Shown: positions 12,923-60,059 of the stretch, piece by piece
Layout of the letters: every line of letters starts with the position of its first letter
Numbering within the stretch: the stretch's first letter is position 1
NCBI GenBank assembly: GCA_032622095.1
Contig: CP136069.1
Span: 83,474,958 to 83,538,957 of the forward strand
Direction of reading: 5' to 3'
Length of the DNA: 64,000 bases
Source of the DNA: Siphonodentalium dalli
Lineage: Eukaryota > Mollusca > Scaphopoda > Gadilida > Siphonodentaliidae
The notes under the pieces: model-generated
What the model was told of the DNA's origin: nothing
Databases searched by the model: none
What the model saw: the letters and a program-made list of their open reading frames with translations, nothing else
Translations under genes and position numbers: made by a program

Positions 12923-13411
12923 CTTAAAGGTACTCAATCCGAACAGAGGGTCCCCATCTCAACAGATTCCAACAACAACAATCCGATCAGAGGGTCCTAT
13001 ATTACTATTTCTTTGGCTTTGGGGGTACAAAATATTTGATTCGAGTCGAGGAACCCATCAAACAAAGCTCAGAGTTATTAGATATTGATTTTTGAAATTT
13101 GTTATTTACTCGAGATGAGTACTAATAATTGCCTTCAACTGCCGTAATCTGCTCTGGATGTGTACTCCAAAATCTATTCAAACAGACAAGGATGGATAAC
13201 TCTAAAATCAAGTGGTAATAACAGCGCAATTTTGACTGAGTTCTGGGCCAGATAATATTCCCGATAATGAAAAATAATAGATTTCTAAAATCGATATCTA
13301 ACAAATCTGAGCTTTGATGGGTGACTTCCTCGACTCGAATCAAATATTTTTGACCCCCGAAGCCATTGAAATAGTAATTGAGAGGAGTTTTATCGGATTG
13401 AGTACCTTTAA
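12923..13411. mobile_element. Family E element with TTAA ends
   Basis: It starts two bases after the preceding family A copy. TTAA-AGGTACTCAATCCGAACA at the left and ATCGGATTGAGTACCT-TTAA at the right. A second CAATCCGATCAGAGGGTCC inside the left arm indicates a local duplication of the end. Confidence 0.75.
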
Positions 13412-13871: not shown

Positions 13872-14807
13872 GAATGTTCACTTAATGATGTAAATTATTT
13901 TCAAAGATAAATAAAAAATCATGCTAATTTGTTGATTTCTGTCATTAGTTCTTTCTTTCACTTCTAAATACTCACTGGTGAGAAGTAACCTCAGGAAATG
14001 TCCAGCTAATAAGTTAAAGATGGTTTATCTCTTCCTAAATATGTTTCATATAGTCTCTGGGTTATAAATTAATAATTATGAGTTAATATATTAATTAATA
14101 TAGATTTTATATCGATATTTCTATTATTACATAGCTAGTGATTAAATTCATTCCCAGCCACTTAATTCTACCATGTGAACATGCCATATTCAGCGGTAAT
14201 GGGTCACCCTTCCCGACATCACTCTCATCAGGCTGGTCTGGTCTGATATCACCGGTGTGATATTACTCGATACAGACCAGTTGTCATGGAAAACCCCAGG
14301 GAGATCATGTGATAATTACGTCACCTTCCGTGTTCGCCTTGTTGTTTGTTTGCTCTTATTTCTTAGCATGAAATTCCATTAACAATGTTAATTTGAGAAT
14401 CTAGATACTTCCCAGAACAGGCCTGAGCAGAATGAGGTTCTCAGAGGGTGAATTTGGTGATGCAAAGGACAGACACTATTTGCAGGACTGCCACCAGTTT
14501 TGATTCATTAAACTAAACATTCTTACGGACATGGCTTGTTCGAACCTCAAAATTATGAATCCATAATTTGTTTAGAGGTATCTCAAAATATACTTGTAGG
14601 GAAGATATCCGAAAGATTTGTCGATATAGAGCCGAAAATGCGTTTTGTTTTTATTATATTTTTCAATAAATTTTAGATCACTTCGTTTGTGCTTCATTTG
14701 TTAAATTTTTTTGTCAGCGGATGTAATGAGTGGACAATGTGTTCGTCAGAGGGTTTAATAACCCACCCTGCCTGATAGCAGTATAATGAGGGCGTCACCT
14801 CCCTGGA
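13872..14807. other. Mostly unannotated; one family D fragment
   Basis: A short family D piece, CAGAATGAGGTTCTCAGAGG with TGAATTTGGTGATGC, is at 14429-14465. The motif TAAATACTCACTGGTGAG at 13966 is shared with the + gene UTR region and 50834. Nothing else is recognised up to the edge of the satellite. Confidence 0.5.
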
Positions 14808-16697
14808 TGCTCAATACCAGTTAACAGATGGGGTGAATCCTCAATACCAGTTAACAGATGGGGTGAATCCTCAATACCAGTTAACAGAGGGGTGAATCCT
14901 CAATACCAGTTAACAGATGGGGTGAATCCTCACTACCAGTTAACAGATGGGGTGAATCCTCAATACCAGTTTAATAACAGATGGGGTGAATCCTCAATAC
15001 CAGTTAACAGATGGGGTGAATCCTCAATACCAGTTAACAGATGGGGTGAATCCTCAATACCAGTTAACAGATGGGGTGAATCCTCAATACCAGTTAACAG
15101 ATGGGGTGAATCCTCAATACCAGTTAACAGATGGGGTGAATCCTCAATACCAGTTAACAGATGGGGTGAATCCTCAATACCAGTTTAATAACAGATGGGG
15201 TGAATCCTCACTACCAGTTAACAGATGGGGTGAATCCTCAATACCAGTTAACAGATGGGGTGAATCCTCAATACCAGTTTAATAACAGATGGGGTGAATC
15301 CTCACTACCAGTTAACAGATGGGGTGAATCCTCAATACCAGTTAACAGATGGGGTGAATCCTCAATACCAGTTTAATAACAGATGGGGTGAATCCTCACT
15401 ACCAGTTAACAGATGGGGTGAATCCTCAATACCAGTTAACAGATGGGGTGAATCCTCACTACCAGTTAACAGATGGGGTGAATCCTCAATACCAGTTAAC
15501 AGATGGGGTGAATCATCACTACCAGTTAACAGATGGGGTGAATCCTCACTACCAGTTAACAGATGGGGTGAATCCTCACTACCAGTTAACAGATGGGGTG
15601 AATCCTCAATACCAGTTAACAGATGGGGTGAATCCTCACTACCAGTTAACAGATGGGGTGAATCCTCACTACCAGTTAACAGATGGGGTGAATCCTCAAT
15701 ACCAGTTAACAGATGGGGTGAATCCTCAATACCAGTTAACAGATGGGGTGAATCCTCACTACCAGTTTAATAACAGATGGGGTGAATCCTCACTACCAGT
15801 TAACAGATGGGGTGAATCCTCACTACCAGTTTAATAACAGATGGGGTGAATCCTCAATACCAGTTAACAGATGGGGTGAATCCTCACTACCAGTTAACAG
15901 ATGGGGTGAATCCTCAATACCAGTTAACAGATGGGGTGAATCCTCACTACCAGTTAACAGATGGGGTGAATCCTCACTACCAGTTAACAGATGGGGTGAA
16001 TCCTCAATACCAGTTAACAGATGGGGTGAATCCTCAATATCAGTTAACAGATGGGGTGAATCCTCAATACCAGTTAACAGATGGGGTGAATCCTCAATAC
16101 CAGTTAACAGATGGGGTGAATCCTCAATACCAGTTAACAGATGGGGTGAATCCTCAATACCAGTTAACAGATGGGGTGAATCCTCAATATCAGTTAACAG
16201 ATGGGGTGAATCCTCAATACCAGTTAACAGATGGGGTGAATCCTCACTACCAGTTAACAGATGGGGTGAATCCTCAATACCAGTTAACAGATGGGGTGAA
16301 TCCTCACTACCAGTTAACAGATGGGGTGAATCCTCACTACCAGTTAACAGATGGGGTGAATCCTCAATACCAGTTAACAGATGGGGTGAATCCTCAATAC
16401 CAGTTAACAGATGGGGTGAATCCTCAATACCAGTTAACAGATGGGGTGAATCCTCAATACCAGTTAACAGATGGGGTGAATCATCAATACCAGTTAACAG
16501 ATGGGGTGAATCCTCACTACCAGTTAACAGATGGGGTGAATCCTCAATACCAGTTAACAGATGGGGTGAATCCTCAATACCAGTTAACAGATGGGGTGAA
16601 TCCTCAATATCAGTTAACAGATGGGGTGAATCCTCACTACCAGTTAACAGATGGGGTGAATCCTCAATACCAGTTAACAGATGGGGGGGGGGGGGGG
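14808..16697. repeat. Satellite A array 1, 30-bp monomer, about 62 copies
   Basis: The monomer begins TTAACAGATGGGGTGAATCC and ends TCAATACCAG. Its main variants are TCACTACCAG, TCAATATCAG and AATCATCA. Six monomers are 34 bp long because CAGTTAACAG is replaced by CAGTTTAATAACAG (near 14968, 15183, 15277, 15371, 15765 and 15829). Both the NPQYQLTDGV and NRWGESSIPV frames stay open because the unit length is a multiple of three and has no stop in these frames. This is not evidence of a protein. The array ends in a run of 15 G and then GCGATTCTCCAG. Confidence 0.97.
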
Positions 16698-17185
16698 CGA
16701 TTCTCCAGGTGTTGTACGGGACATTTATACTCTTATATGGCCCCTATTTTATTCAGGAAATTAAACTTGCGATATATAATATACTCTGGCAATGCTGCTA
16801 GGCACATATAACAAGCACAATAGAACTTGATTGTTCATAGAGATCTAATTTTTTTTAAATAGTAAAAAATATGCGGTGTTGTACGGGACATAATTTGGGA
16901 ACTGGTTTTGTGGTCAATGACTTTCAACGACATATTCAATCCAATGATGAAAGTACTTGTCAGGATTTGTCCTTTGTGTGCTCAGAAAGTTAACCCTTTT
17001 GCAAAGTTGACATAACTATTGTAATGGGGTTCATTTACATTCAAGATATTGTTGAAAAATACTGGTGTTGTACGGGACAACTGGAAAAGTGTTGTACGGG
17101 ACATAATTTTCCATCAGAGATTATTATTGTATAATTTAATGAAATGGTTCAAAGCTACATATTTTTCACTTAAGTATCATACCCA
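16698..17185. repeat. Linker a, unit 1, with four direct 15-bp motifs
   Basis: GTGTTGTACGGGACA occurs at 16709, 16876, 17065 and 17089. The rest is AT-rich and unrecognised. It is nearly identical to 21390-21890, with about one clear substitution (GATGAAAGTACTTG versus GATGAAGGTACTTG). Confidence 0.9.
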
Positions 17186-18892
17186 TTGATATTACATACA
17201 TACGATCATGAGTATGTAGGGGCACCTGCGGCGCATAAGATACTATACGTGGCGGGATGGGGTGGTGGTGGCTGGTGGGTACTTGCATACATACGATCAT
17301 GAGTATGTAGGGGCACCTGCGGCGCATAAGATAGTATGGGTGGCGCGATGGGGTGGTGGGTTGTTTACTTACATACATACGATCATGAGTATGTAGGGGC
17401 GCCTGCGGCGCATAAGATACTATGGGTGGCAGGATGGGGTGGTGGGTTGTTTACTTACATACATACGATCATGAGTATGTAGGGGCGCATAAGATACTAT
17501 GGGTAGCAGGATGGGGTGGTGGGTGGGTCACTTACATACATACGATCATGAGTATGTAGTGGCGCCTGCAGCGCTTAAGATACTATGGGTGGCGGGATGG
17601 GGTGGTGGGTGGGTACTTACATACATACGATCAGGGTATGTAGGGGAGCCTGTGGTGCATAAGATACTATGGATGGCGGGATTGGGTGGTGGGTGGGTAC
17701 TTACATACATACGATCATGAGTATGTAGTGGCGCCTGCGGCGCATAAGATACTATGGTTGGCGGGATGGGGTGGTGGGTGGGTACTTACATACAATCATG
17801 ATAATGTAGTGGCGCCTGCGACGCATGAGATACTATGCATGGCAGGATGGGGTGGTGGGTGGGTACTTACATACATACGATCATGGGTATGTAGGGGCGC
17901 CTGCGGCGATTAAGATACTATGGATGGCGGGATTGATGGTGTGTGGGTACTTACATACATACGATCATGAGTATGTAGACGCGGTTGCGACGCATAAGAT
18001 ACTATGGGTGGCGGGATGGGGTGGTGGGTGGGTCACTTACATACATATGATCATGAGTATGTAGTGGCGCATAAGATACTATGGATGGCGGGATTGGGTG
18101 GTGGGTGGGTACTTACATACATACGATCATGAGTGTGTAGTGGCGCCTGCAGCGCATAAGATACTATGGGTGGCGGGATGGGGTGGTGGGTTGTTTACTT
18201 ACATACATACGATCATGAGTATGTAGCCTGGGCGCATAAAATACTATGGATGGCGGGATTGGGTGGTGGGTGGGTACTTACATACGATCATGAGTATGTA
18301 GTGGCGCCTGCAGCGCATAAGATACTATGGGTGGCGGGATGGGTTGGTGGGTGGGTACTTACATACGATCATGAGTATGTAGTGGCGTATGAGATACTAT
18401 GCATGGCGGGATGGGGTGGTAGGTGGGTCACTTACATACATACGATCATGAGTATGTAGTGGCGCCTGCGGCGCATTAGATACCATGAATGGCGGGATTG
18501 GGTGGTGGGTGGGTACTTACACACATACGATCATGAGTATGTAGTGGCGCCTGCGGCGCATTAGATACCATGAATGGCGGGATTGGGTGGTGGGTGGGTA
18601 CTTACATACGATCATGAGTGTGTAGTGGCGCCTGCGGCGCATTAGATACCATGAATGGCGGGATTGGGTGGTGGGTGGGTACTTACATACATACGATCAT
18701 GAGTATTTAGTGGCACCTGCGGCGCATAAGATACTATGAGTGGCGGGATGGGGTGGTGGGTGGGTCACTTACATACAAACGATCATGAGTAAGTAGTGGC
18801 GCCTGCAGCGCATAAGATACTATGGATGGCGGGATTGGGTGGTGGGTGGGTACTTACATACGATCATGGGGTGGTGGGTGTGTACTTTAGTG
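17186..18892. repeat. Satellite B array 1, roughly 90-bp monomers, about 18 copies
   Basis: The monomer contains ACATACGATCATGAGTATGT, GGCGCCTGCGGCGCATAAGA, TACTATGGRTGGCGGGAT and GGGGTGGTGGGTGGGTACTT. It includes two small palindromes, CATACGATCATGAGTATG (imperfect) and GGCGCC. Monomer length varies through repeated loss of a 9-base segment at the GGCGC direct repeats. Open frames across the array are repeat artefacts. Confidence 0.95.
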
Positions 18893-19737
18893 TACGGTAT
18901 CGATATTCCAACAAAAGTAGAGTTATTTGAATGTCCGGTATATGCAGGACATGGCCACACAGGGTGGTACAAGGGACATAGTCTGTACGTATTATTCTAA
19001 AAAATAGTATGCTTACTACCCAAGAGTATATTTATAGTAATATAGACAATATAATTGTGTAACAATTATAAATGTAACTACACGGTATATGTGTGTTTTA
19101 GTAATAAATGTCAACCAAATGCAATATATTGAACTTTATAAGAGCAGTAAAATTCATCAGTCAAATAGTGTTGTACGGGACATGTCCCGTACAACACCCC
19201 AAAGTGTTGTACGGGACAATATCAATTTGAGTACTGAGAAAGGACAATGAGTTAGGTCTCATTTCTTGCTTGATGGCTTATATACAGAGGCATTGAAACT
19301 GAAATATGGGTGATCATATGGCAAGTTGGTCTTTCTGGGACAGAAAAATGGTTTAAAAAGTGTTGTACGGGACATTGATAAAGGGCCAAATTTTGGGATT
19401 GAAAAAATGCGTTTATCGGATATATAGTATAATTATTTCATTTCTATTCCATAAAATGTGTTCCCAGGTTACATTTACATAATAACATTGCCAATCTTAA
19501 TGTTTAAACAGTGCTTAATATGCAGGGTATACAATACAGGAAAAAAGAGAGTTATGTTTGGATTTTCACGTAGGAGATATATGTCGATAAAAATCACACA
19601 AACAATCACATTTCAACCAAAACTATTTGAATGTTATTAGCCTTATATCAATACCTTAACTAAATGCCAACTGCTTTAGTCTAAAATACCTTTTCAATTT
19701 TCGGATATTTGCCTCTTATCTGGAGAATCGCCCTGCC
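18893..19737. repeat. Linker b, unit 1, with 30-bp perfect palindrome
   Basis: GTGTTGTACGGGACA at 19168-19182 is followed without a gap by its reverse complement at 19183-19197. Further direct copies are at 19204 and 19360. The linker ends CTGGAGAATCGCCC next to satellite A array 2, the exact inverse of the GGGCGATTCTCCAG after each array. Unit 1 contains the uninterrupted CTGGGACAGAAAAATGG that is split in unit 2. Confidence 0.93.
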
Positions 19738-21389
19738 CAGGGTGAATCCTCAATACCAGTTAACAGATGGGGTGAATCATCAATACCAGTTAACAGATGG
19801 GGTGAATCCTCAATACCAGTTTAATAACAGATGGGGTGAATCCTCAATACCAGTTAACAGATGGGGTGAATCCTCAATACCAGTTAACAGATGGGGTGAA
19901 TCCTCAATACCAGTTAACAGATGGGGTGAATCCTCACTACCAGTTTAATAACAGATGGGGTGAATCCTCAATACCAATTAACAGATGGGGTGAATCCTCA
20001 ATACCAGTTTAATAACAGATGGGGTGAATCCTCAATACCAGTTAACAGATGGGGTGAATCCTCAATACCAGTTAACAGATGGGGTGAATCCTCAATACCA
20101 GTTAACAGATGGGGTGAATCCTCAATACCAGTTAACAGATGGGGTGAATCCTCAATACCAGTTAACAGATGGGGTGAATCCTCAATACCAGTTTAATAAC
20201 AGATGGGGTGAATCCTCAATACCAGTTAACAGATGGGGTGAATCCTCACTACCAGTTAACAGATGGGGTGAATCCTCAATACCAGTTAACAGATGGGGTG
20301 AATCCTCACTACCAGTTTAATAACAGATGGGGTGAATCCTCACTACCAGTTAACAGATGGGGTGAATCCTCAATACCAGTTAACAGATGGGGTGAATCCT
20401 CACTACCAGTTAACAGATGGGGTGAATCCTCAATACCAGTTAACAGATGGGGTGAATCCTCACTACCAGTTAACAGATGGGGTGAATCCTCAATACCAGT
20501 TAACAGATGGGGTGAATCCTCAATATCAGTTAACAGATGGGGTGAATCCTCAATACCAGTTAACAGATGGGGTGAATCCTCAATACCAGTTAACAGATGG
20601 GGTGAATCCTCAATACCAGTTAACGGATGGGGTGAATCCTCAATACCAGTTAACAGATGGGGTGAATCCTCAATACCAGTTAACAGATGGGGTGAATCCT
20701 CAATACCAGTTTAATAACAGATGGGGTGAATCCTCACTACCAGTTAACAGATGGGGTGAATCCTCAATACCAGTTAACAGATGGGGTGAATCCTCAATAC
20801 CAGTTTAATAACAGATGGGGTGAATCCTCAATACCAGTTAACAGATGGGGTGAATCCTCACTACCAGTTAACAGATGGGGTGAATTCTCAATACCAGTTA
20901 ACAGATGGGGTGAATCCTCACTACCAGTTAACAGATGGGGTGAATCCTCAATACCAGTTAACAGATGGGGTGAATCCTCACTACCAGTTAACAGATGGGG
21001 TGAATCCTCAATACCAGTTAACAGATGGGGTGAATCCTCACTACCAGTTAACAGATGGGGTGAATCCTCACTACCAGTTAACAGATGGGGTGAATCCTCA
21101 ATACCAGTTAACAGATGGGGTGAATCCTCAATACCAGTTAACAGATGGGGTGAATCATCAATACCAGTTAACAGATGTGGTGAATACTCACTACCAGTTA
21201 ACAGATGGGGTGAATCCTCAATACCAGTTAACAGATGGGGTGAATCATCACCACCAGTTAACAGATGGGGTGAATCCTCAATACCAGTTAACAGATGGGG
21301 TGAATCCTCAATATCAGTTAACAGATGGGGTGAATCCTCACTACCAGTTAACAGATGGGGTGAATCCTCAATACCAGTTAACAGATGGG
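19738..21389. repeat. Satellite A array 2, 30-bp monomer, about 54 copies
   Basis: Same monomer and variants as array 1. Seven 34-bp monomers lie near 19819, 19943, 20007, 20191, 20315, 20709 and 20803. The 394-bp gap between 20315 and 20709 equals the gap between 15371 and 15765 in array 1. The right end has only six G before CGATTCTCCAG. Confidence 0.97.
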
Positions 21390-21890
21390 GGGCGATTCTC
21401 CAGGTGTTGTACGGGACATTTATACTCTTATATGGCCCCTATTTTATTCAGGAAATTAAACTTGCGATATATAATATACTCTGGCAATGCTGCTAGGCAC
21501 ATATAACAAGCACAATAGAACTTGATTGTTCATAGAGATCTAATTTTTTTTAAATAGTAAAAAATATGCGGTGTTGTACGGGACATAATTTGGGAACTGG
21601 TTTTGTGGTCAATGACTTTCAACGACATATTCAATCCAATGATGAAGGTACTTGTCAGGATTTGTCCTTTGTGTGCTCAGAAAGTTAACCCTTTTGCAAA
21701 GTTGACATAACTATTGTAATGGGGTTCATTTACATTCAAGATATTGTTGAAAAATACTGGTGTTGTACGGGACAACTGGAAAAGTGTTGTACGGGACATA
21801 ATTTTCCATCAGAGATTATTATTGTATAATTTAATGAAATGGTTCAAAGCTACATATTTTTCACTTAAGTATCATACCCATTGATATTAC
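21390..21890. repeat. Linker a, unit 2
   Basis: Near-identical copy of 16698-17185 with four GTGTTGTACGGGACA motifs (about 21404, 21571, 21760 and 21784). Confidence 0.93.
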
Positions 21891-23607
21891 ATACATACGA
21901 TCATGAGTATGTAGGGGCGCCTGCGGCGCATAAGATACTATACGTGGCGGGATGGGGTGGTGGTGGCTGGTGGGTACATGCATACATACGATCATGAGTA
22001 TGTAGGGGCACCTGCGGCGCATAAGATAGTATGGGTGGCGCGATGGGGTGGTGGGTTGTAAACTTACATACATACGATCATGAGTATGTAGGGGCGCCTG
22101 CGGCGCATAAGATACTATGGGTGGCAGGATGGGGTGGTGGGTTGTTTACTTACATACATACGATCATGAGTATGTAGGGGCGCATAAGATACTATGGGTA
22201 GCAGGATGGGGTGGTTGGTGGGTCACTTACATACATACGATCATGAGTATGTAGTGGCGCCTGCAGCGCTTAAGATACTATGGGTGGCGGGATGGGGTGG
22301 TGGGTGGGTACTTACATACATACGATCATGGGTATGTAGGGGAGCCTGTGGTGCATAAGATACTATGGATGGCGGGATTGGGTGGTGGGTGGGTACTTAC
22401 ATACATACGATCATGAGTATGTAGTGGCGCCTGCGGCGCATAAGATACTATGGTTGGCGGGATGGGGTGGTGGGTGGGTACTTACATACAATCATGATAA
22501 TGTAGTGGCGCCTGCGACGCATGAGATACTATGCATGGCAGGATGGGGTGGTGGGTGGGTACTTACATACATACGATCATGGGTATGTAGGGGCGCCTGC
22601 GGCGATTAAGATACTATGGATGGCGGGATTGATGGTGTGTGGGTACTTACATACATACGATCATGAGTATGTAGACGCGGTTGCGACGCATAAGATACTA
22701 TGGGTGGCGGGATGGGGTGGTGGGTGGGTCACTTACATACATATGATCATGAGTATGTAGTGGCGCCTGTGGCGCATAAGATACTATGGATGGCGGGATT
22801 GGGTGGTGGGTGGGTACTTACATACATACGATCATGAGTGTGTAGTGGCACCTGCAGCGCATAAGATACTATGGGTGGCGGGATGGGGTGGTGGGTTGTT
22901 TACTTACATACATACATACGATCATGAGTATGTAGCCTGGGCGCCTGCGGCGCATAAAATACTATGGATGGCGGGATTGGGTGGTGGATGGGTACTTACA
23001 TACAATCATGAGTATGTAGTGGCGCCTGCGGCGCATAAGATACTATGGGTGGCGGGATGGGTTGGTGGGTGGGTACTTACATACGATCATGAGTATGTAG
23101 TGGCGCCTGCGGCGTATGAGATACTATGCATGGCGGGATGGGGTGGTAGGTGGGTCACTTACATACATACGATCATGAGTATGTAGTGGCGCCTGCGGCG
23201 CATTAGATACCATGAATGGCGGGATTGGGTGGTGGGTGGGTACTTACACACATACGATCATGAGTATGTAGTGGCGCCTGCGGCGCATTAGATACCATGA
23301 ATGGCGGGATTGGGTGGTGGGTGGGTACTTACATACGATCATGAGTGTGTAGTGGCGCCTGCGGCGCATTAGATACCATGAATGGCGGGATTGGGTGGTG
23401 GGTGGGTACTTACATACATACGATCATGAGTATGTAGTGGCACCTGCGGCGCATAAGATACTATGAGTGGCGGGATGGGGTGGTGGGTGGGTCACTTACA
23501 TACAAACGATCATGAGTAAGTAGTGGCGCCTGCGGCGCATAAGATACTATGGATGGCGGGATTGGGTGGTGGGTGGGTACTTACATACGATCATGGGGTG
23601 GTGGGTG
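21891..23607. repeat. Satellite B array 2
   Basis: Monomer by monomer collinear with array 1. It keeps the GGCGCCTGYGGCGC segment at three places where array 1 has only one GGCGC or GGCG (18063, 18228 and 18384 in array 1). Confidence 0.95.
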
Positions 23608-24070
23608 GGTACTTTAGTGTACGGTATCGATATTCCAACAAAAGTAGAGTTATTTGAATGTCCGGTATATGCAGGACATGGGCACACAGGGTGGTACAAG
23701 GGACATAGTCTGTACGTATTATTCTAAAAAATAGTATGCTTACTACCCAAGAGTATATTTATAGTAATATAGACAATATAATTGTGTAACAATTATAAAT
23801 GTAACTACACGGTATATGTGTGTTTTAGTAATAAATGTCAACCAAATGCAATATATTGAACTTTATAAGAGCAGTAAAATTCATCAGTCAAATAGTGTTG
23901 TACGGGACATGTCCCGTACAACACCCCAAAGTGTTGTACGGGACAATATCAATTTGAGTACTGAGAAAGGACAATGAGTTAGGTCTCATTTCTTGCTTGA
24001 TGGCTTATATACAGAGGCATTGAAACTGAAATATGGGTGATCATATGGCAAGTTGGTCTTTCTGGGACAG
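23608..24070. repeat. Linker b, unit 2, left part
   Basis: Matches 18893-19345, including the 30-bp palindrome near 23896 and the direct motif near 23931. It stops at CTGGGACAGAA, where the Helitron-like element is inserted. Confidence 0.93.
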
Positions 24071-26463
24071 AATGAAAGTGTCAATGACACTGTAGCTCAA
24101 CTTGGAAAGGGAATAATTTAATGTATTACAGTCAATGGAGCGATTAGGAATGTGGAAAGTTGAATGTCTAATACTAGTTTATAGACATGAAGAGAAAAGT
24201 AAAATCCAAGATGGCTGCTGGCGGCCATGTTTTCGGCCGAATGACCCCAAAATGATTGTATCCCATCTACATGTCATCGTTAACATCCATGACAAATTTT
24301 ATGACGATCAGACTAAAGGTACGACCTGTAGCCTATGCTAAAGAATTTAGTCATACAAAGAGTAAAATCCAATATTAACAACCATGACAAATTTCATGAT
24401 GATCAGACGAACAGTACGACCTGTGGCCCATGCTAATGGATTAAATTTTGAAATCCAAGATGGCCACTGGCGGCCATGTTTTTTGTCCGAATGACCCCAA
24501 AATGACTCGTTCCCATTTACATTCCAATTTCAACAGCCATGACAAATTTTATGATGATCAGACTAAATGTACGACCTGTAGCCCGTGCTAAAGGATTTAG
24601 TCATACAAAGAGTAAAATCAAAGATGGCTGCTGGCGGCCATGTTTTTCTGCCGAATGACCCCAAAATGACTCGTTCCCATTTACATTCCAATTTCAACAG
24701 CCATGACAAATTTTATGATGATCAGACTAAAGGTACGACCTGTAGCCCGTGCTAAAGGATTTAGTCATACAAAGAGTAAAATCAAAGATGGCTGCTGGCG
24801 GCCATGTTTTTCTGCCGAATGACCCCAAAATGACTCGTTCCCATCTACATGTCATTATTAACATTCACGACAAATTTTATGATGATCAGACTAAAGGTAC
24901 AACCTGTAGCCCGTGCTAAAGGATTTAGTCATACAAAGAGTAAAATCCAAGATGGCTGCTGGCGACCATGTTTTTTGGCCGAATGACCCCAAAATTACTC
25001 GTTCCCATCTACATGTCATTATTAACATTCACGACAAATTTTATGATGATCAGACGAACAGTACGACCTGTGGCCCGTGCTAATGGATTAAATTTTGAAA
25101 TCCAAGATGGCCACTGGCGGCCATGTTTATTGGCCGAATGACCCCAAAATTACTCGTTCCCATCTACATTCCAATTTCAACAGCCATGACAAATTTTATG
25201 ATGATCAGACTAAAGGTACGTCCTGTAGCCCGTGCTAAAGGATTTAGTCATACAAAGAGTAAAATCCAAGATGGCTGCTGGCGGCCATGTTTTTTGGCCG
25301 ATTGACCCCAAAATGACTCGTTCCCATCTACATGTCATTATTAACATTCTTGACAAATTTTTTGATGATCAGACTAAAAGTAGGACCTGTAGCCCGTGCT
25401 AAAGGATTTAGTCATACAAAGAGTAAAATCCAAGATGGCTGCTGGCGGCCATGTTTTTTGGCCGAATGACCCCAAAATTACTCGTTCCCATCTACATGTC
25501 AATATTAACATCCATGACAAATTTGATGATGATCAGACTAAAGGTACGACCTGTAGCCCGTGCTAAAGAATTTAGTCATACAAAGAGTAAAATCCAAGAA
25601 GGCTGCTGGCCGCCATGTTTTTTGGCCGAATGACCCCAAAATTACTCGTTCCCATCTACATGTCAATATTAACATCCATGACAAATTTCATGATGATCAG
25701 ACGAACAGTACGACCTGTGGCCCGTGCTAATGGATTGAATTTTGAAATCCAAGATGGCCGCTGGCGGCCGTGTTTTTTGTCCGAATGACCCCAAAATGAC
25801 TCGTTCCCATCTACATTCCAATTTCAACAGCCATGACAAATTTTATGATGATCGGACTAAAGGTACGACCTGTAGCCCGTGCTAAAGGATTTAGTCATAC
25901 AAAGAGTGAAATCAAAGATGCCTGCTGGCGGCCATGTTTTTTGGCCGAATGACCCCAAAATGACTCGTTCCCATCTACATGTCATTATTAACATTCTTGA
26001 CAAATTTTATGATGATCAGACTAAAAGTACGACCTGTAGCCCGTGCTAAAGAATTTAGTCATACAAAGAGTAAAATCCAAGATGGCTGCTGGCGGCCATG
26101 TTTTTGGGCCGAATGACCCCAAAATTACTCGTTCCCATCTACATGTCAATATTAACATCCATGACAAATTTCATGACGATCAGACAAACAGTACGCCCTG
26201 TAGCCCGTGCTAATGGATTGAATTTTGAAATGCAAGATGGCCACTGGCGGCCATGTTTTTTTACCGAATGACCCCAAAATTAATCATTCTGGTCTAAATG
26301 TTGATGTCAACAGCTATTACAAATTTCATAATGATCCGACCAAAGGTACGACCTGTAGACTGCATTGTTGACGCCTTACGTACACACGTACACACGCACA
26401 CACGGATGACGGACGACAAAGCCATGGCAATAGCTCAAACTTTACAAAGTAAAGTTGAGCTAA
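24071..26463 (+). mobile_element. Helitron-like non-autonomous element with internal 155-164-bp tandem array
   Basis: The left end TGAAAGTGTCAATGACACTG contains a hairpin and is followed by TAGCTCAACTTGG. The right end CAAACTTTACAAAGTAAAGT (hairpin ACTTTAC-AAA-GTAAAGT) is followed by TGAGCTA. Between them are about 13 monomers with AAGATGGCTGCTGGCGGCCA, GAATGACCCCAAAATGACTC and TACGACCTGTAGCCCGTGCT. They alternate between an ATTTAGTCATACAAAGAG subtype and a shorter ATTAAATTTTGAAATCCAAG subtype. A hairpin just before a CTA(A) end, internal tandem repeats and no clear target duplication resemble molluscan Helitron-derived repeats, but no Rep/helicase is present to prove the class. TAGCTCAACTT near the left end mirrors AAGTTGAGCTA at the right end. 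Confidence 0.7.
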
Positions 26464-26857
26464 AAATGGTTTAAAAAGTGTTGTACGGGACATTGATAAA
26501 GGGCCAAATTTTGGGATTGAAAAAATGCGTTTATCGGATATATAGTATAATTATTTCATTTCTATTCCATGAAATGTGTTCCCAGGTTACATTTACATAA
26601 TAACATTGCCAATCTTAATGTTTAAACAGTGCTTAATATGCAGGGTATACAATACAGGAAAAAAGAGAGTTATGTTTGGATTTTCACGTAGGAGATATAT
26701 GTCGATAAAAATCACACAAACAATCACATTTCAACCAAAACTATTTGAATGTTATTAGCCTTATATCAATACCTTAACTAAATGCCAACTGCTTTAGTCT
26801 AAAATACCTTTTCAATTTTCGGATATTTGCCTCTTATCTGGAGAATCGCCCTGCCCA
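26464..26857. repeat. Linker b, unit 2, right part
   Basis: Continues exactly where the insertion interrupted the unit (AAAATGGTTTAAAAAGTG). It has one GTGTTGTACGGGACA near 26478 and ends CTGGAGAATCGCCC. Confidence 0.93.
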
Positions 26858-27045
26858 GGGTGAATCCTCAATACCAGTTAACAGATGGGGTGAATCATCA
26901 ATACCAGTTAACAGATGGGGTGAATCCTCAATACCAGTTTAATAACAGATGGGGTGAATCCTCAATACCAGTTAACAGATGGGGTGAATCCTCACTACCA
27001 GTTAACAGATGGGGTGAATCCTCAATACCAGTTAACAGAGGGGGT
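26858..27045. repeat. Satellite A array 3, truncated, about six copies
   Basis: It opens exactly like array 2, including an AATCATCAATACC monomer second and a 34-bp monomer third. It then breaks off at AACAGAGGGGGTGAATGG. This is the start of a third unit. Confidence 0.93.
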
Positions 27046-27312
27046 GAATGGGGTCACTCCTTAGGGAGCCTTGCATATATAAGAGAATGAATCCACTGGC
27101 TTACAAGGTCAAGGTAAATATTGTTAGGCCAATGTATTCTCATATAATGCGAGGCACCCTATGGGAGCCACACATATATAGGAGACTGCACTGACCTACA
27201 AGGCAAGGCCAATGTCTTCTCTTATCTATGGGAGACTCACATATATAAGAGAATGCATTGGCACAGGGTTTTTCGCAAAATTTCAGGAAGCTCCAGTCAT
27301 GGAAGGATAACC
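27046..27312. mobile_element. Family A MITE, 5' end missing
   Basis: Two to three palindromic modules (GCATATATAAGAGAATG, CTCATATAATGCGAGGC, TATATAAGAGAATGCATTGG), the AATATTGTTAGGCCAATG block and the end AGCTCCAGTCATGGAAGG-ATAA. Confidence 0.7.
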
Positions 27313-27837: not shown

Positions 27838-29086
27838 ACCAAAGGATTTAGTCATGCAAAGAGTAAAATCCAAGATGGCTGCTGGTGGCCATGTTTTTTG
27901 GCCGAATGACCCCAAAATAACTCGTTCCCATCTACATGTCAATGTCAACAGCTGTAACGAATTTCATAATGATCTGACCAAAGGTACGACCTGTAGCCCG
28001 TGCCAAAGGATTTAGTCATGCAAAGAGTAAAATCCAAGATGGCTGCTGGTGGCCATGTTTTTTGGCCGAACGACCCAAAAATACATCGTTCCCATCTTCA
28101 TGTCAATATTAACATCCATGACAAATTTCATGATGATCAGACGAATAGTACGACCTGTAGCCCGTGCTAATGGATTTAATTTTGAAATCAAAGATGGCCG
28201 CTGGCGGCCATGTTTTTTTGCCGAATGACCCCAAAATGACTCGTTCCCATCTACATAACATTGTTAACATCCATGACATATTTCATGAAGATCCGACCAA
28301 AGGTACGACCTGTAGCCCGTGCCCAAGGATTTAGTCATGCAAAGAGTAAAATCCAAGATGGCTGCTGGCCCCAAAATGACTCGTTCCCATCTACATGTCA
28401 ATATTAACATCCATGACAAATTTCATGATAATCAGACGAAGAGTACGACATGTAGCCTGTGCTAATGGATTGGATTTTGAAATTCAAGATGGACGCTGGC
28501 GGCCATGTTTTTTTGCCGAATGACCCCAAAATGACTCGTTCCCATCTACATGTCAATGTCAACAGCCATGACAAATCTCATAATGATCCGACCAAAGGTA
28601 CGATCTGTAGCCCGTGCCAAAGGATTTAGTCATGCAAAGAGTAAAATCCAAGATGGCTGCTGGTGGCCATGTTTTTTGGCCAAATGACCCCAAAATGACT
28701 CGTTCCCATCTACATGACATTGTTAACATCCATGAAAATTTCATGAAGATCCGACCAAAGGTACGACCTGTAGCCCGTGCCAAAGGATTTAGTCATGCAA
28801 AGAGTAAAATCCAAGATGGCTGCTGGCCCTAAAATGACTCGTTCCCATCTACATGTCAATATTAACATCCATGACAAATTTCATGATAATCAAACGAAGA
28901 GTACGACCTGTAGCCTATGCTAATGGATTGGATTTTGAAATTCAAGATGGACGCTGGCGGCCATGTTTTTTTGCCGAATGACCCCAAAATGACTCGTTCC
29001 CATCTACATGTCAATGTCAACAGCCATGACAAATTTCATAATGATCCATGGCAATAGCTCAAACTTTACAAAGGAAAGTTGAGCTA
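27838..29086 (+). mobile_element. Second Helitron-like element array, 5'-truncated
   Basis: About eight monomers of the same 155-164-bp repeat (here ATTTAGTCATGCAAAGAG and AAGATGGCTGCTGGTGGCC), ending with CAATAGCTCAAACTTTACAA and AGTTGAGCTA at 29086. The left end is absent. Two internal units lack the segment between GGCTGCTGGCC and CCAAAATGACTC, and the same shortened form occurs twice, which shows local block duplication. Confidence 0.75.
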
Positions 29087-39349: not shown

Positions 39350-39560
39350 TGACATTTGAATTTTGGTGATGATCAGATGAGGGATAAGCTCTGTAGGGTG
39401 TGTTAAATGATTTAGTGATGCAAAGAATAAAATTCAAGATGGCTGCCGGTGGCCAAGTTTTTCATTGAAAATCATTCAAATTTGATAGCTCCCATCTAGA
39501 GGTGATCCTAGACCCATATACCAAATATTGAAAGCGGTCAAAGTTTGTTTTAACACCTTA
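39350..39560 (+). mobile_element. Fragment of the Helitron-like element
   Basis: AAATGATTTAGTGATGCAAAG, AATTCAAGATGGCTGCCGGT and TTGATAGCTCCCATCTAGAG match the 41449-42115 copy without either end. Confidence 0.65.
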
Positions 39561-40526: not shown

Positions 40527-41029
40527 CTATACATCATTGTATCTGTAGTTAAGATGTGAAGACTGTGACTCAAAAGTCCCAGTAGATGGCGCTATGTGAA
40601 CCCACGGTAATTCCTGACGCCGCTCATAGTCATTATTGCGAGCATTATTAGACTTTGTTTTGTGAGAACGTGTGGATTTGGAAGATTTGTTGCTTGCTTT
40701 GCTACGTGTACTCCTCGCACTCCGCGTGCTCTGCCGGGCTGTAGCACCACGACTAGAGCTCCTTGGCTTCTCGTCGTAGCCATAGTCATCACTGAATGGT
40801 GGCATAGTCTGATTTATGGCACAGTCGTAGCTTGGTGGTCCCTCCAGAGAAATGGGACTGTTAGAAGGGGGGTAATCCGTGAAAGAAGGGTTATCGTGGT
40901 AACGATTATTGTTTTTAGCGTTCCGTCGAATGCTTGCAGTGTTCGTGCTGTGATTCATATGGTTAATTGGTAATGGTGAAGGAGCAGTCTCCATTTTCAC
41001 AAATTCAAGAACTTCATTGGCTGGTGTCG
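40527..41029 (-). CDS. NKAIN: NKAIN terminal exon B: long PPxY- and Ser/Arg-rich cytoplasmic tail
   Basis: The acceptor CCTACTTTCAG precedes 41029. The exon begins with two bases that complete the split codon left by exon 5 (T plus CG gives Ser), then runs open for 166 codons to the stop at 40527. The tail starts TPANEVLEFVKMETAPSP and holds a Pro-rich part with GPPSYDCA, a PPxY motif that WW domains such as those of NEDD4-type ligases bind. An acidic patch (DDYGYDEK) is followed by a basic Ser/Arg/Lys region (STRSARSTRSKASNKSSKS) and ends YRYNDV. Vertebrate NKAIN tails are much shorter, so this is a lineage-specific extension. Joining by phase is strong evidence. Function of the tail is unknown. 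If the exon at 48758-48845 is spliced in first, this exon would be read in another frame and stop after five residues. Confidence 0.82.
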
Positions 41030-41448
41030 CTGAAAGTAGGAAAAAAATTAATTTAACTTTTTTTTACCCGATTTATTTATACAAAACATGCGAAGTGATT
41101 AAGAAAAACTATCAGTACAAAAAAAAGTGGAATTTGTTGAGATTAATTAAATATGCCATACGGTTTGCAAACCTCAAAGTTACAACATTATAGATTAAAC
41201 ACAATTCAGTATTATACATGGCTCATGTCATAAAAATATTTTAAATATATGCTGCACACAATCATTGTTGGACTAACGGTTATCTGGCAGATGTTTTAAT
41301 GAATATCTAACTTTCCTGTAACATTGAAATAAATTTATATAAAGATTGATATGAACAAAAAATTATTAAATGAATGGGAAAACCCATCCAGATATAAGAG
41401 ATCCCGGGCTTATATCAAAAGCAAGCTAAATTAATATAAAAATGAAAG

Positions 41449-42115
41449 TGTCAATGACACTGTAGCTCAACTTGGGAAGGAATTTATTTTTTGCTAAGCA
41501 ATGAATAGAATGATAAAGAAGAAGGAAAGCCAAAAAGTTACAGTAAAGGTCTGGTATTGTGTAGATGAAATTATTTTCATTTCAAACATTTCACCAATAA
41601 ATGTGGGGTGCAGATGGATTCAAATTTGAAATCCAAGATGACTGCTGTTTTTAAAAAAAAATTGGTGACAATTGGAAGAGGGATGTGGTCTGTAGGGTGT
41701 GCCAAAGGATTTAGTCATGCAAAGAGTAAAATCCAAGATGGCTGCCGATGGCCATGTTTTTCATAGAAAATCGCTCAAATTTGATAGCTCCCATCTAGAG
41801 GTGATCCTAGACATGCCTGTAAATTTTCAAAACATTTCTCCAATAAATACGGGCTGCAGGGTGTGCCGATGGATACAAATTTGAAATACAAAATAGCTGC
41901 TGGCGGCCATTTTTTAAAACAAATTTCGGAAAAAATTGATGGCTCCCATCTGGAGGTCACCCCGAAGATCTTAATGAAGTTTGATGATGATCGGATGAGG
42001 AATGTGGCCTGTAGGTTGAGCCAAAGGAAATTGTTGATGGGCAGACACAAGGATGCATGGATGACAGACACCAACCCATGGCAATAGCTCAAACTTTACA
42101 AAGTAAAGTTGAGCT
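41449..42115 (+). mobile_element. Helitron-like element, complete short copy, in NKAIN intron
   Basis: The left end ATGAAAGTGTCAATGACACT and TAGCTCAACTTGGG, and the right end CAAACTTTACAAAGTAAAGT with TGAGCTA, match the 24071 element. The interior has only about three degenerate monomers (AAGATGGCTGCCGATGGCC, TAGCTGCTGGCGGCCAT). It is the short form against which the expanded array can be compared. Confidence 0.75.
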
Positions 42116-42247
42116 AATAAGTACATGTAGTATATTCTGCAAAATAATACTAACAACCTGGCATAAAAAACAAGAAAATGTATTGATTGTCATTCCTGAA
42201 AATAAGGCACAATTTAAGAGGACAGATGTCTCCCACAAATAATCAAC

Positions 42248-53235: not shown

Positions 53236-53420
53236 TTAGCAATTGGAAGACAGTGCTCTCGATGACGCCGTTTTCACTGAGCCATTCCACGAATCTGGTG
53301 CTTCCGTGTATGACACGTAGGTTGGTAGCGCCCAACTGTCTCGCACCTGAACTGGTTGGTACTTGGGCAGACACTGATCCCGAGGTACACTATAAGTGCT
53401 AGTGTTGGTTATATACTTAC
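53236..53420 (-). CDS. NKAIN: Possible read-through extension of NKAIN exon 5 (third C-terminus)
   Basis: If the donor at 53420 is not used, translation continues in frame from CKYITNTSTYSVP through PVQVRDSWALPTYVSYTEAP to SRALSSNC and a stop at 53236. Base composition is close to 50 percent GC with codon-like use, unlike the surrounding AT-rich intron. This supports a retained coding extension. I do not recognise the peptide in known NKAINs, so it may still be chance. Confidence 0.45.
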
Positions 53421-53478
53421 AACTGTCATCTTCTGTGTATACATAAATTGTTACACAAGCAAACACAAAACCAACCAA
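53421..53478 (-). CDS. NKAIN: NKAIN exon 5: end of TM4 and start of cytoplasmic tail
   Basis: The acceptor TTTCCATTTCAG precedes 53478, and a strong donor GTAAGT follows 53421. The 58 bp encode LVGFVFACVTIYVYTEDDS plus one base, so the exon ends in phase 1. LVGFVFAC and the acidic EDDS match the fourth membrane segment and juxtamembrane acidic patch of NKAINs. Both downstream exons (48845 and 41029) begin with two bases that fit this phase. The frame also continues past the donor for 60 further codons to 53236 in sequence that is richer in GC than the intron. Confidence 0.88.
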
Positions 53479-53499
53479 CTGAAATGGAAATAGGTGCAA

Positions 53500-55270
53500 A
53501 GTATAATAATAAATAACCCTAATATGTACTGAATGAAATGTACAAAACCCCCACAAAACTAGATGTGTGACTGTCCCATTACCAGTACTGTCCCAATGGG
53601 ACTAAGGATACCCCCTGCAGTGTACATGTGCTAAAAAAAGGCAGCCACACAACTAATCTTGTAATTGCCGGTGCACAGGTTACCTTGTTTGTAAATATCT
53701 GTGTCAAGCAGACCTGTTTACTTTTAAAATTGGAAAAGGGAGATTTGTCGTCAGAAATAGGGAGATTTAGTGAAAAATAGGGAGATTTTTTTCAATGTGT
53801 CAGTATCATGGGAAAATCTTAATATTTTTCATTTAAATGTCATGTGGACTGTTTGTTGCATTGGGTTTGTGTCTGCTATTTAACGGCCTTGATCTGTTGA
53901 CAAGGAGTTTCTCACTGAACCATTGGGAATAGATTACGATTTTCTGGTTACGGATTACTTTTTATTTCGAACAAGGCAATACAATGATTAAAACTATATT
54001 TGTATACTATAAAATGGTGCTCTTGGATAATTTGATCGGCAAATATATTCAGTAACATCAGGTAGCATCGGTGAATTTAAAGAGAGTACACACTGTTGAT
54101 AATATTTTAGATTCGCGTTCTGTTATTGCGTATACAAAACACGGAATACCAACAAGACGGAAACAGAACTTTCACTGAAACAATATAATAATATGAGACG
54201 GCGGTTTTAAAAGCAGTCGGTCGGGACGAGCAGAAACATACACTTTATTAAGTGTTGCCAAAAAGGAAGGCTTCTTGTTTGATATATTATAATCCTTGAC
54301 TGGACATTGAAAACCGTATTTACTTACTTTAACAAAAGAGAGTCAACATTGTGTTAACATTTTGTCACTGTTTGACTCGCAGGCGATATATTACTAATGA
54401 TATAGAGTGCATGGTTTATCGCTTGCTACAGCCGTCGGCTAATTTTGGTTTTATCTTTTGAATAGCACAGGAGAAATGACACAAAATCGGGAGACACCCA
54501 CCGAAATCGGGAAAGTAAACAGGTCTGGTGCCAAGTTGAAATTGACCAGGAAACGAAGGAGTAGAAGTATCAGTCCTTCCCAGGAGATGGGAGCGATTGC
54601 TCTCGCATCTGTACACACGCAATTTTCAATTCACAGGTGCTAAAATGTGCACTCGTCCCTCTTGTCAAAATGATTATGGTGACTGTAATCGTTCAATATT
54701 GAACAATTTGATTTGAAGGTTTATTTTGATCCTTTTCTGTTTCAATTCAATTATGGGTATGTGAAAGTGTGACCAAATGAAGACAGACATGTAGGTGTAT
54801 GTCCCATTATGACATCTTGTTTGAGAAACACTCAACTTATTATATTACAGGGTGGAATTACACCCGTCTTATGAATTGCGTGAGCAAATAAGTGCTCTTG
54901 TTGTGTTTTTCTCCTGGGAAGGACTGAAGTACACGCTTCCACAAAATGACAAAATTATGTGCGTAGCTAAACATTTCTAAGTCGTAAGGGGAATAACTAA
55001 AGTAAAAAATCTCAGATGGATCTCATAATAGGAGGTATACAGGTTCCGATGATGATCAATAATTGTGCCAAGTTAAAAAAACATTTGACTAAAAAATGAA
55101 GCAATATAAGTTGCATCAAATGGACTAACATACAGACTGCCAAGCTGATTTTATACCCCTCACTTCTAACTTCAGAAGCTTCTGTTGAATTGTATCAACT
55201 CAAAATTAATATTTTATACTTTGAAATCTAACAAAAAGTTCAGGAAAAAGAGATTATAAATCAAGTTCCC
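53500..55270 (-). other. NKAIN intron, nothing firmly recognised
   Basis: TAGGGAGATTTAGTGAAAAA and a CATCAGGTAGCATCGGTG stretch near 54058 have weak echoes at 61380-61540 (ATTGGGAATAGGGCC, CACCTGATGCTACCC), so an old repeat may be shared. Short frames near 54416-54643 occur on both strands and lack family features. Confidence 0.4.
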
Positions 55271-59352: not shown

Positions 59353-59692
59353 TTCAGGTTAATTATATCATGCATGATGTAGAAATATAATATTAATCTA
59401 AATGGTGTCTTTTGTAAATTCCGACCAACACCAATGCTCCAACTACTAGTACATGTACCATAGTTCAAATTTCCAGACAATGCTACTATAAAACACAACA
59501 TAATCTGACCCGTCTCCTCTATATTCTCAAAGCTCTTTCAAATAAAGACATTTGTATATACGTAATCTGGATGATTTAAAATTTTCACTGATCAATGGTG
59601 TGTTTAACCAGTTTTGAAGCACACCCCATAACACGAGATCAGATCTATTAAACACTCAATGAGTGACTTATACAACTACAAATAATACTTAC

Positions 59693-59830
59693 AAATATGA
59701 TAAATTTAGGTTTGGACTGATGTGCTCCGAATACTCCCAGAATACCACATATCAGCTGGAAAAAGTTACCGATAATAGGTGCCCACATATAACCTAGAAA
59801 GTCAAATACTTGCTTCTCTAATGTAGCAAT
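59693..59830 (-). CDS. NKAIN: NKAIN exon 2: first loop and second membrane segment
   Basis: The acceptor TTTTATTTCAG precedes 59830, and the donor GTAAGT follows 59693. The 138 bp encode 46 residues in phase 0: IATLEKQVFDFLGYMWAP, IIGNFFQLICGILGVFGA and HQSKPKFIIF. The pattern LE(R/K)Q(V/I)FDFLGYxWAPI is the hallmark of NKAIN proteins, which bind the beta subunit of the Na+/K+-ATPase at the plasma membrane. The first exon, expected to encode a short Cys-containing N-terminus ending in LQL, was not found up to 64000, so the gene is 5' partial here. Confidence 0.95.
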
Positions 59831-59908
59831 CTGAAATAAAATGGAAATCAATATCAAATTTGAGGTCTGATTGATTGATTTATTTATCAATGGAAGTTCT
59901 TTATATGT

Positions 59909-60059
59909 TCTCAGTAATGCCCTAAATAATCGACTCCTTAACCACAGCAAGTGAGAGCTTTCCAACGAATGGCAACAAGCCAAATTTCCGACTAAATCCT
60001 GAAAAATTATCCATAATTCTGCTGTGGTTAAGGAGTCGATTATTTAGGGCATTACTGTA
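59909..60059. mobile_element. Family C palindromic MITE, left arm shortened
   Basis: CAGTAATGCCCTAAATAATC at the left and GATTATTTAGGGCATTACTG at the right. The left inner arm is deleted between CTTAACCACAGCA and GTGAGAGCTTTCC. Confidence 0.78.

Follow-up and report, generated by a model that had tools for sequence, protein, structure and literature searches.

We analysed a stretch of 64,000 nucleotides of Siphonodentalium dalli contig CP136069.1 (hereafter the window, whose numbering gives all positions), which contains a block of two tandem arrays, a 30-bp array (A) and an 85-bp array (B), and two linkers (a and b). We propose, with a probability of about 0.55, that the 30-bp minisatellite A received a 3.0-kb transposon-like element and that the block of array and element was then doubled by unequal exchange. 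This element, which we call X, comprises linker a, array B and linker b, and its second copy holds an insert, C. The locus is best read as an ordinary route to a two-satellite pattern, an arrangement of a known kind.

Tandem organisation of the block

Tandem Repeats Finder placed array A at 14810-16686, 19740-21390 and 26858-27049, with 34-bp variants among its units, and array B at 17192-18861 and 21887-23588. The order A, a, B, b is found twice, and the block is then closed by six A units and part of a seventh. Unit 1 spans 14808-19739 (4932 bp) and unit 2 spans 19740-26857 (4727 bp once the 2391-bp insert is subtracted). Self-BLAST aligned 15014-19345 with 19740-24072 over 4388 columns at 96.5% identity, and because the copies are so long and so nearly identical a chance origin of the doubled order is excluded. 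No BLAST cross-match was obtained between A and B, and neither the arrays nor the linkers matched anything in the window outside 14700-27100 (BLAST, E 0.01). The preliminary description of this DNA had reported a unit repeated at about 4.9 and then 4.7 kb, the start of a third unit, linkers that are almost identical and two satellites unrelated to each other, and all four statements agree with what we find here and in the linker comparison below. The features of the block are as follows.

14810-16686, plus strand: array A1, 30-bp minisatellite; 61 units when split at GGTGAAT, the last one cut
16696-19732, plus strand: element X, copy 1 (X1), uninterrupted, between inverted repeats; 3037 bp
16696-16708, plus strand: left terminal inverted repeat of X1, GGCGATTCTCCAG; 14 bp counting the preceding G
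16709-17191, plus strand: linker a of X1; four perfect copies of a 15-bp motif, at 16709, 16876, 17065 and 17089
17192-18869, plus strand: array B1, the G-rich repeat of 85 bp at the centre of X; with 13 G-quadruplex-type matches, each on the plus strand
18870-19719, plus strand: linker b of X1; four perfect motif copies, at 19168, 19183 (minus strand), 19204 and 19360
19720-19732, minus strand: right terminal inverted repeat of X1
19740-21390, plus strand: array A2; 54 units, the last one cut; would hold the exchange junction
21391-26850, plus strand: element X, copy 2 (X2), with the same inverted repeats; 5460 bp, or 3069 bp without the insert
21404-21886, plus strand: linker a of X2
21887-23596, plus strand: array B2; 12 G-quadruplex-type matches
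23597-24072, plus strand: linker b of X2, left part; motif at 23895, 23910 (minus strand) and 23931
24073-26463, minus strand: insert C, with the parts of a HINE-like non-autonomous Helentron and 164-bp central repeats; 2391 bp
26464-26837, plus strand: linker b of X2, right part; a single motif copy, at 26478
26838-26850, minus strand: right terminal inverted repeat of X2
26858-27052, plus strand: array A3, closing the block; six units and part of a seventh

Inverted repeats and an iterated motif mark out element X

At both of its junctions with A, X is bounded by a perfect 14-bp inverted repeat, GGGCGATTCTCCAG, with the complement on the right. Thirteen base pairs of this repeat occur in the window only at the four ends of the two X copies, even with two mismatches allowed. 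An inverted match of 14 bp was reached in none of 20000 shuffles of the junction segments (longest, 13 bp) and in 34 of 20000 random pairs of 60-bp segments, a figure to be read in the light of the genuine inverted repeats that the window itself contains. On either side of X, array A is found beyond the inverted repeats and in the same phase: it stops at AACAGATGGGG on the left and resumes on the right at GGGTGAATCC, the continuation of that unit. Since the phase of A is unbroken across X, A is the sequence in which X sits.

The linkers carry a 15-bp motif, GTGTTGTACGGGACA, in 16 perfect copies, eight per unit and four on each side of B, with none elsewhere; a looser search added no site at one or two mismatches and one unrelated site at three. 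The commonest 9-mer of the linkers was counted 16 times, compared to at most 10 in 200 linker shuffles under the same both-strand counting. All motif copies of X lie within 408 bp of its left end or 565 bp of its right end, and at 19168-19197 a minus-strand copy is paired with its neighbour in a 30-bp palindrome. Among the best BLAST matches listed, linkers a and b have only the motif and a few adjoining bases in common. G-quadruplex-type matches are concentrated in the central array, with 13 in B1 and 12 in B2 of the 29 on the plus strand of the window, and none on the minus strand. Since the inverted repeats stand at the outer ends of the linkers and the motif is common to both, we treat a, B and b as parts of a single element, within which B is the internal repeat. 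Together, these results suggest that X, which looks like an undescribed non-autonomous DNA element, would have moved by transposition, as its anatomy indicates, and that the 15-bp motif may provide binding sites for an X-mobilising protein or transposase.

Variant units of array A are consistent with an unequal exchange

Once inserted into minisatellite A, X would have been flanked by two A arrays in one orientation, much as if it lay between direct repeats. If the left array of one chromatid then exchanged unequally with the right array of another, the product would be A-X-A-X-A, whose middle array would open like the right array and close like the left; the exchange could have been meiotic or between sister chromatids. 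A HINE-type Helentron would later have entered the second X, while the A arrays went on gaining and losing units.

The unit variants of A have the distribution expected of such a product. A2 and A3 start with the same four units, a rare variant among them (such a start was seen in 91 of 200000 shuffles of A2), and the end of A2 equals that of A1 over the three whole units before the junction unit (721 of 200000 shuffles). Because we chose both features with the unit strings already in view, these shuffle figures somewhat overstate the case. That A2 begins like A3 and ends like A1 is what a single unequal exchange between the arrays to the left and right of X would produce.

The two copies differ little in the linkers and widely in array A

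We compared the two copies column by column, taking the terminal repeats and the seven bases before A together with the linkers. Linker a showed one substitution in 496 columns, and linker b two in 476 (left part) and one in 394 (right part), with no insertion or deletion in either, so that the linkers differ at 4 of 1366 sites (0.29%). B1 and B2 were in register and equal in unit number, with 11 substitutions in 1678 columns and five insertions or deletions of 1-9 bp. Arrays A1, A2 and A3 hold 61, 54 and 7 units, the last of each cut, and have undergone many unit gains and losses. The A arrays gain and lose units and the B copies stay in register, which indicates that A is the unstable array and that B has been a passive passenger ever since the duplication.

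Two details of length variation were also recorded. The length differences between B1 and B2 fall at 17634, 18064, 18200, 18231 and 18384 (B1 positions), and B1 is the shorter in all five; three of them are of 9 bp, in a GTGGCGCCTGC stretch. They may reflect slippage at a G+C-rich hairpin or an error of the read consensus. At the left junction of A with X, a run of 15 G (16683-16697) in copy 1 corresponds to 6 G (21387-21392) in copy 2, a difference due either to slippage or to a sequencing artefact.

The insert in X2 is built like a non-autonomous Helentron

Insert C has the parts of a HINE-like non-autonomous Helentron, as judged from the component list given in passages of PMC7492417 and PMC4067079, and a mobilising Rep/helicase partner is presumed. 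On the minus strand, C carries TAGCTCAACTT near its 5' end, with the complement 33 bp short of where the examined stretch ends, in keeping with the subterminal inverted repeats of about 11-15 bp found in HINEs. Near the 5' subterminal repeat an inverted partner, TAGCTCAACTTTAC...GTAAAGTTTGAGCTA, folds as a stem (z -3.70), and after this stem comes a GT-rich CCGTGTGTGCGTGTGTACGTGTGT stretch (by eye) of the microsatellite-like kind listed for HINEs. The interior consists of 164-bp repeats, followed near the end by the complementary AAGTTGAGCTA and then by a 3' palindrome, AGTGTCATTGACACT, another HINE component, whose fold taken alone is weak (z -1.02). C sits between T and T, as expected of HINEs: in X1 the corresponding position holds five consecutive A residues (T on the element strand), with no duplication beyond them, and the case is that of a single insertion.

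Because X1 keeps the uninterrupted, empty site GACAGAAAAATGG, C arrived, most simply, after the duplication. A second C-type copy lies at 27841-29086, 789 bp past the end of A3 (best alignment 85.6% over 1241 columns); on the minus strand it shows the 5' subterminal inverted repeat and the inverted partner of that repeat. Its matches end at position 2270 of the 2393 examined, and a 3' end was not found. Diverged C-related pieces occur at 39359-39463, 41443-41489, 41608-42117 and 1-77, a scatter through the window that is as expected of a dispersed element.

Evidence against the proposed origin and alternative explanations

Several observations weigh against insertion of X followed by unequal exchange. 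The motif has the same direction in seven of its eight copies, so that the ends of X are not mirror images. Seven extra bases (CTGCCCA) separate the right inverted repeat of X from array A, and they represent either one decayed end or a longer, imperfect terminal repeat. A target-site duplication is at most GGG, inside a run of G that would hide one. The fifth unit of A3 differs from that of A2, and the unit-level alignment of A1 with A2 was modestly better than in shuffles (-4.2, where 60 shuffles averaged -11.5 and reached -5.1 at best), a modest match being expected because the array keeps changing. None of the 34 stop-to-stop pieces overlapping the linkers of copy 1 matched a transposase in Pfam (the set comprised pieces of at least 30 amino acids, plus one B2 frame). 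X, A, B and C had no match in IMG/VR, a collection where animal DNA is hardly to be expected, in exact searches with the palindrome, the paired motif, the A, B and C units and the inverted repeat with the motif. Finally, the reading presupposes a correct assembly, and a duplication made by the assembly would look alike.

For 29 of the 34 pieces Pfam gave no match up to E 1, and three weak matches stayed below the cut-off: CUB_M02D8_5_6th (E 0.043), PAGK (0.14) and zf-C3H1 (0.64). Two open frames in array A, 15816-16808 (plus strand) and 15826-16743 (minus strand), gave six whole-protein matches, three of them above the cut-off (Rep_fac_C, E 5.9e-17; Cytochrome_cB; ATPase_RavA_C), with no single stretch passing alone. 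We read these whole-protein scores as sums over a 10-residue repeat and rejected the frames as genes. The idea that B units form stable DNA hairpins was not convincing either (z -1.38 and -1.85 for two units folded); the G-rich runs are the clearer feature.

The main rival remains a false join, through A, of two haplotypes of one A-X-A locus, with and without the HINE, so that each chromosome would bear one X. We consider this explanation a serious one, to which we give a distinctly smaller share of belief than to the doubling by exchange. The differences between the copies are allele-like (0.29% in the linkers, presence or absence of the HINE, minisatellite lengths), the junction would fall in a long tandem array, and duplication errors of assemblies are documented (PMC9516828). 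On the other side, no unique flank is duplicated and both joints lie within A, and the window contains no N base anywhere, neither of which is decisive. An independent entry of X, twice, into one long A array is in line with the repeated entry of mobile elements into satellite arrays reported in PMC5139131, yet it would have to explain why A has the same phase at both copies, why the first four units to the right and the three whole units to the left of X are identical, and why the linkers differ at just 4 sites; we hold it to be very improbable.

We also think it unlikely that A is a genuine part of a composite of A, a, B and b that moves or amplifies as a whole. The order of the four is the same in both copies, and the A unit loosely resembles the inverted repeat (GGTGAATCCTCA versus GGCGATTCTCCA, 8 of 12 letters by eye and without a control); against this, the inverted repeats leave A out, and the block begins and ends within A, where no terminal structure was found: the left and right unique flanks had a similarity score of 14, which 72 of 300 random pairs also reached. 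The same figures led us to drop a separate proposal, in which the unique flanks are remnants of a larger insertion. Intergenic spacers of tandem gene arrays often contain several unrelated sub-repeat arrays, and a spacer of this kind, for example that of ribosomal DNA, could be thought to underlie the block. We give this almost no credence, as there were no Rfam matches in the window at gathering scores, which leaves ribosomal DNA, 5S and ribozyme-bearing repeats unsupported at those thresholds, and an NKAIN exon lies in the same window.

Set beside the proposed insertion and exchange, the remaining claims of the preliminary description hold in part. It had stated that array lengths differ, which is true of A, by whole units, and fails for B, where no unit was gained or lost. 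Its view that the amplification is recent is supported as a recent tandem duplication of A-a-B-b, conditional on a correct assembly. The suggestion of a mobile or recombining unit survives in its second half, given the traces of exchange in the A arrays, while nothing seen here points to a mobile unit that includes A, and the inverted repeats leave A outside. A composite higher-order repeat would have no element boundary between its arrays, and here the inverted repeats part A from a-B-b in both copies; the new class of composite repeat that had been envisaged is thus not the simplest reading, since an element with an internal repeat nested in A explains the pattern.

Relation of X to known elements

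Bivalve HINEs, or non-autonomous Helentrons (Cg_HINE, the pearl family, CvA and DTC84, with satellite-like central repeats), resemble X in having unique flanks around a central tandem array, and one of them, Cg_HINE_11_12, is described in passages of PMC7492417 as carrying two arrays of unrelated monomers. X differs from them in its inverted repeats at the very ends and its 85-bp G-rich repeat, and no palindrome was seen near its right end; because of this different layout we do not file X as a HINE.

In working plan X is closest to CACTA elements, with which it has in common 13-bp inverted repeats and an iterated, asymmetric, partly palindromic motif. As described in PMC2613891, soybean Tgmt* (CACTA, En/Spm) ends in 13-bp terminal inverted repeats and duplicates 3 bp of its target; its iterated subterminal motif is partly palindromic and unevenly shared between the two ends (4 and 24 copies). 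Subterminal repeats of this kind are recognised in Spm/En by the TNPA protein. X shows the iterated subterminal motif of the CACTA/EnSpm group. Unlike these elements, it lacks a CACTA start, its ends being GGGCGATTCTCCAG, its motif copies are few (four and four) and perfect, it has a central minisatellite, and a 3-bp duplication is only a candidate. Lacking a CACTA terminus, X is not filed as CACTA.

Elements of the hAT group start with CAGGG and make an 8-bp target-site duplication. X was also considered as a hAT element and lacks such a duplication: to the eye, the left end has no copy of the eight bases that lie beyond CAGGGCGATTC at the right end (CCCAGGGT).

Tetris, a foldback transposon of Drosophila virilis whose internal 220-bp repeats seeded satellite arrays (PMC4079207), resembles X in combining terminal inverted repeats with tandem repeats and in its link to satellite growth. 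The repeats of Tetris sit in its inverted repeats, whereas those of X occupy the centre, with a unique flank on each side, and A is external to X. Oyster satellites have likewise been tied to transposons (PMC11136912). The present locus differs from known cases of transposons nested in satellite arrays in that element and array together seem to have undergone a tandem duplication, and the array variants bear signs of the exchange.

Outside searches gave little. The 15-mer motif alone matched 24 stretches in IMG/VR, once in each and without clustering, which we take as chance. Two close motif copies matched once in GTDB, in a 17-bp tandem duplication of Oceanibium sediminis (321 bases around it were read), and this was also judged chance because a single tandem duplication of one 13-mer match suffices. 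A full-text literature search for the letters of the motif and the inverted repeat met only 12 letters of the motif, once, in a paper on mouse Trib1. No title on composite or nested higher-order repeats was found to describe this arrangement among those retrieved, and we do not claim its absence from print.

What would be new here is the element X; elements whose internal arrays feed satellites are already known. More tentatively, and at odds we would put well below even, X could be the first representative seen of a family of non-autonomous DNA transposons in animals that has yet to be named, with the iterated 15-bp motif as a binding array and a G-quadruplex-rich 85-bp minisatellite in its centre, whose nesting in A would have led to amplification by exchange in A, a satellite of transposons at copy number two.

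Surroundings of the block

Among the eight open frames scanned with Pfam, the one at 59648-60043 (minus strand) matched NKAIN (PF05640, E 7e-18). This match indicates animal DNA, and the HINE-like insert with its 164-bp repeats, judged by work on bivalves, suggests a mollusc. By eye, 53236-53601 and 40527-41063 (minus strand) may be further parts of the NKAIN gene; they had no Pfam match. At 1496-2400 a TCTG run separates two short arrays of a 122-bp repeat, perhaps another central-repeat element. An inverted repeat at 12979-13400, with 129-bp arms that are 81% complementary and 164 bp apart, is possibly a miniature inverted-repeat transposable element.

Significance

If the assembly holds, the locus would be a readable case of an element-carried repeat drawn into a larger tandem unit, in which the array variants mark the site of exchange and the insertion that came later allows the events to be put in order. 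No new repeat class is needed to account for any of this. X, with its perfect iterated motif, most deserves to be followed up. Constant at all eight sites per unit in linkers that are otherwise unlike, the 15-bp motif would offer a handle for finding the X family and the protein that mobilises it.

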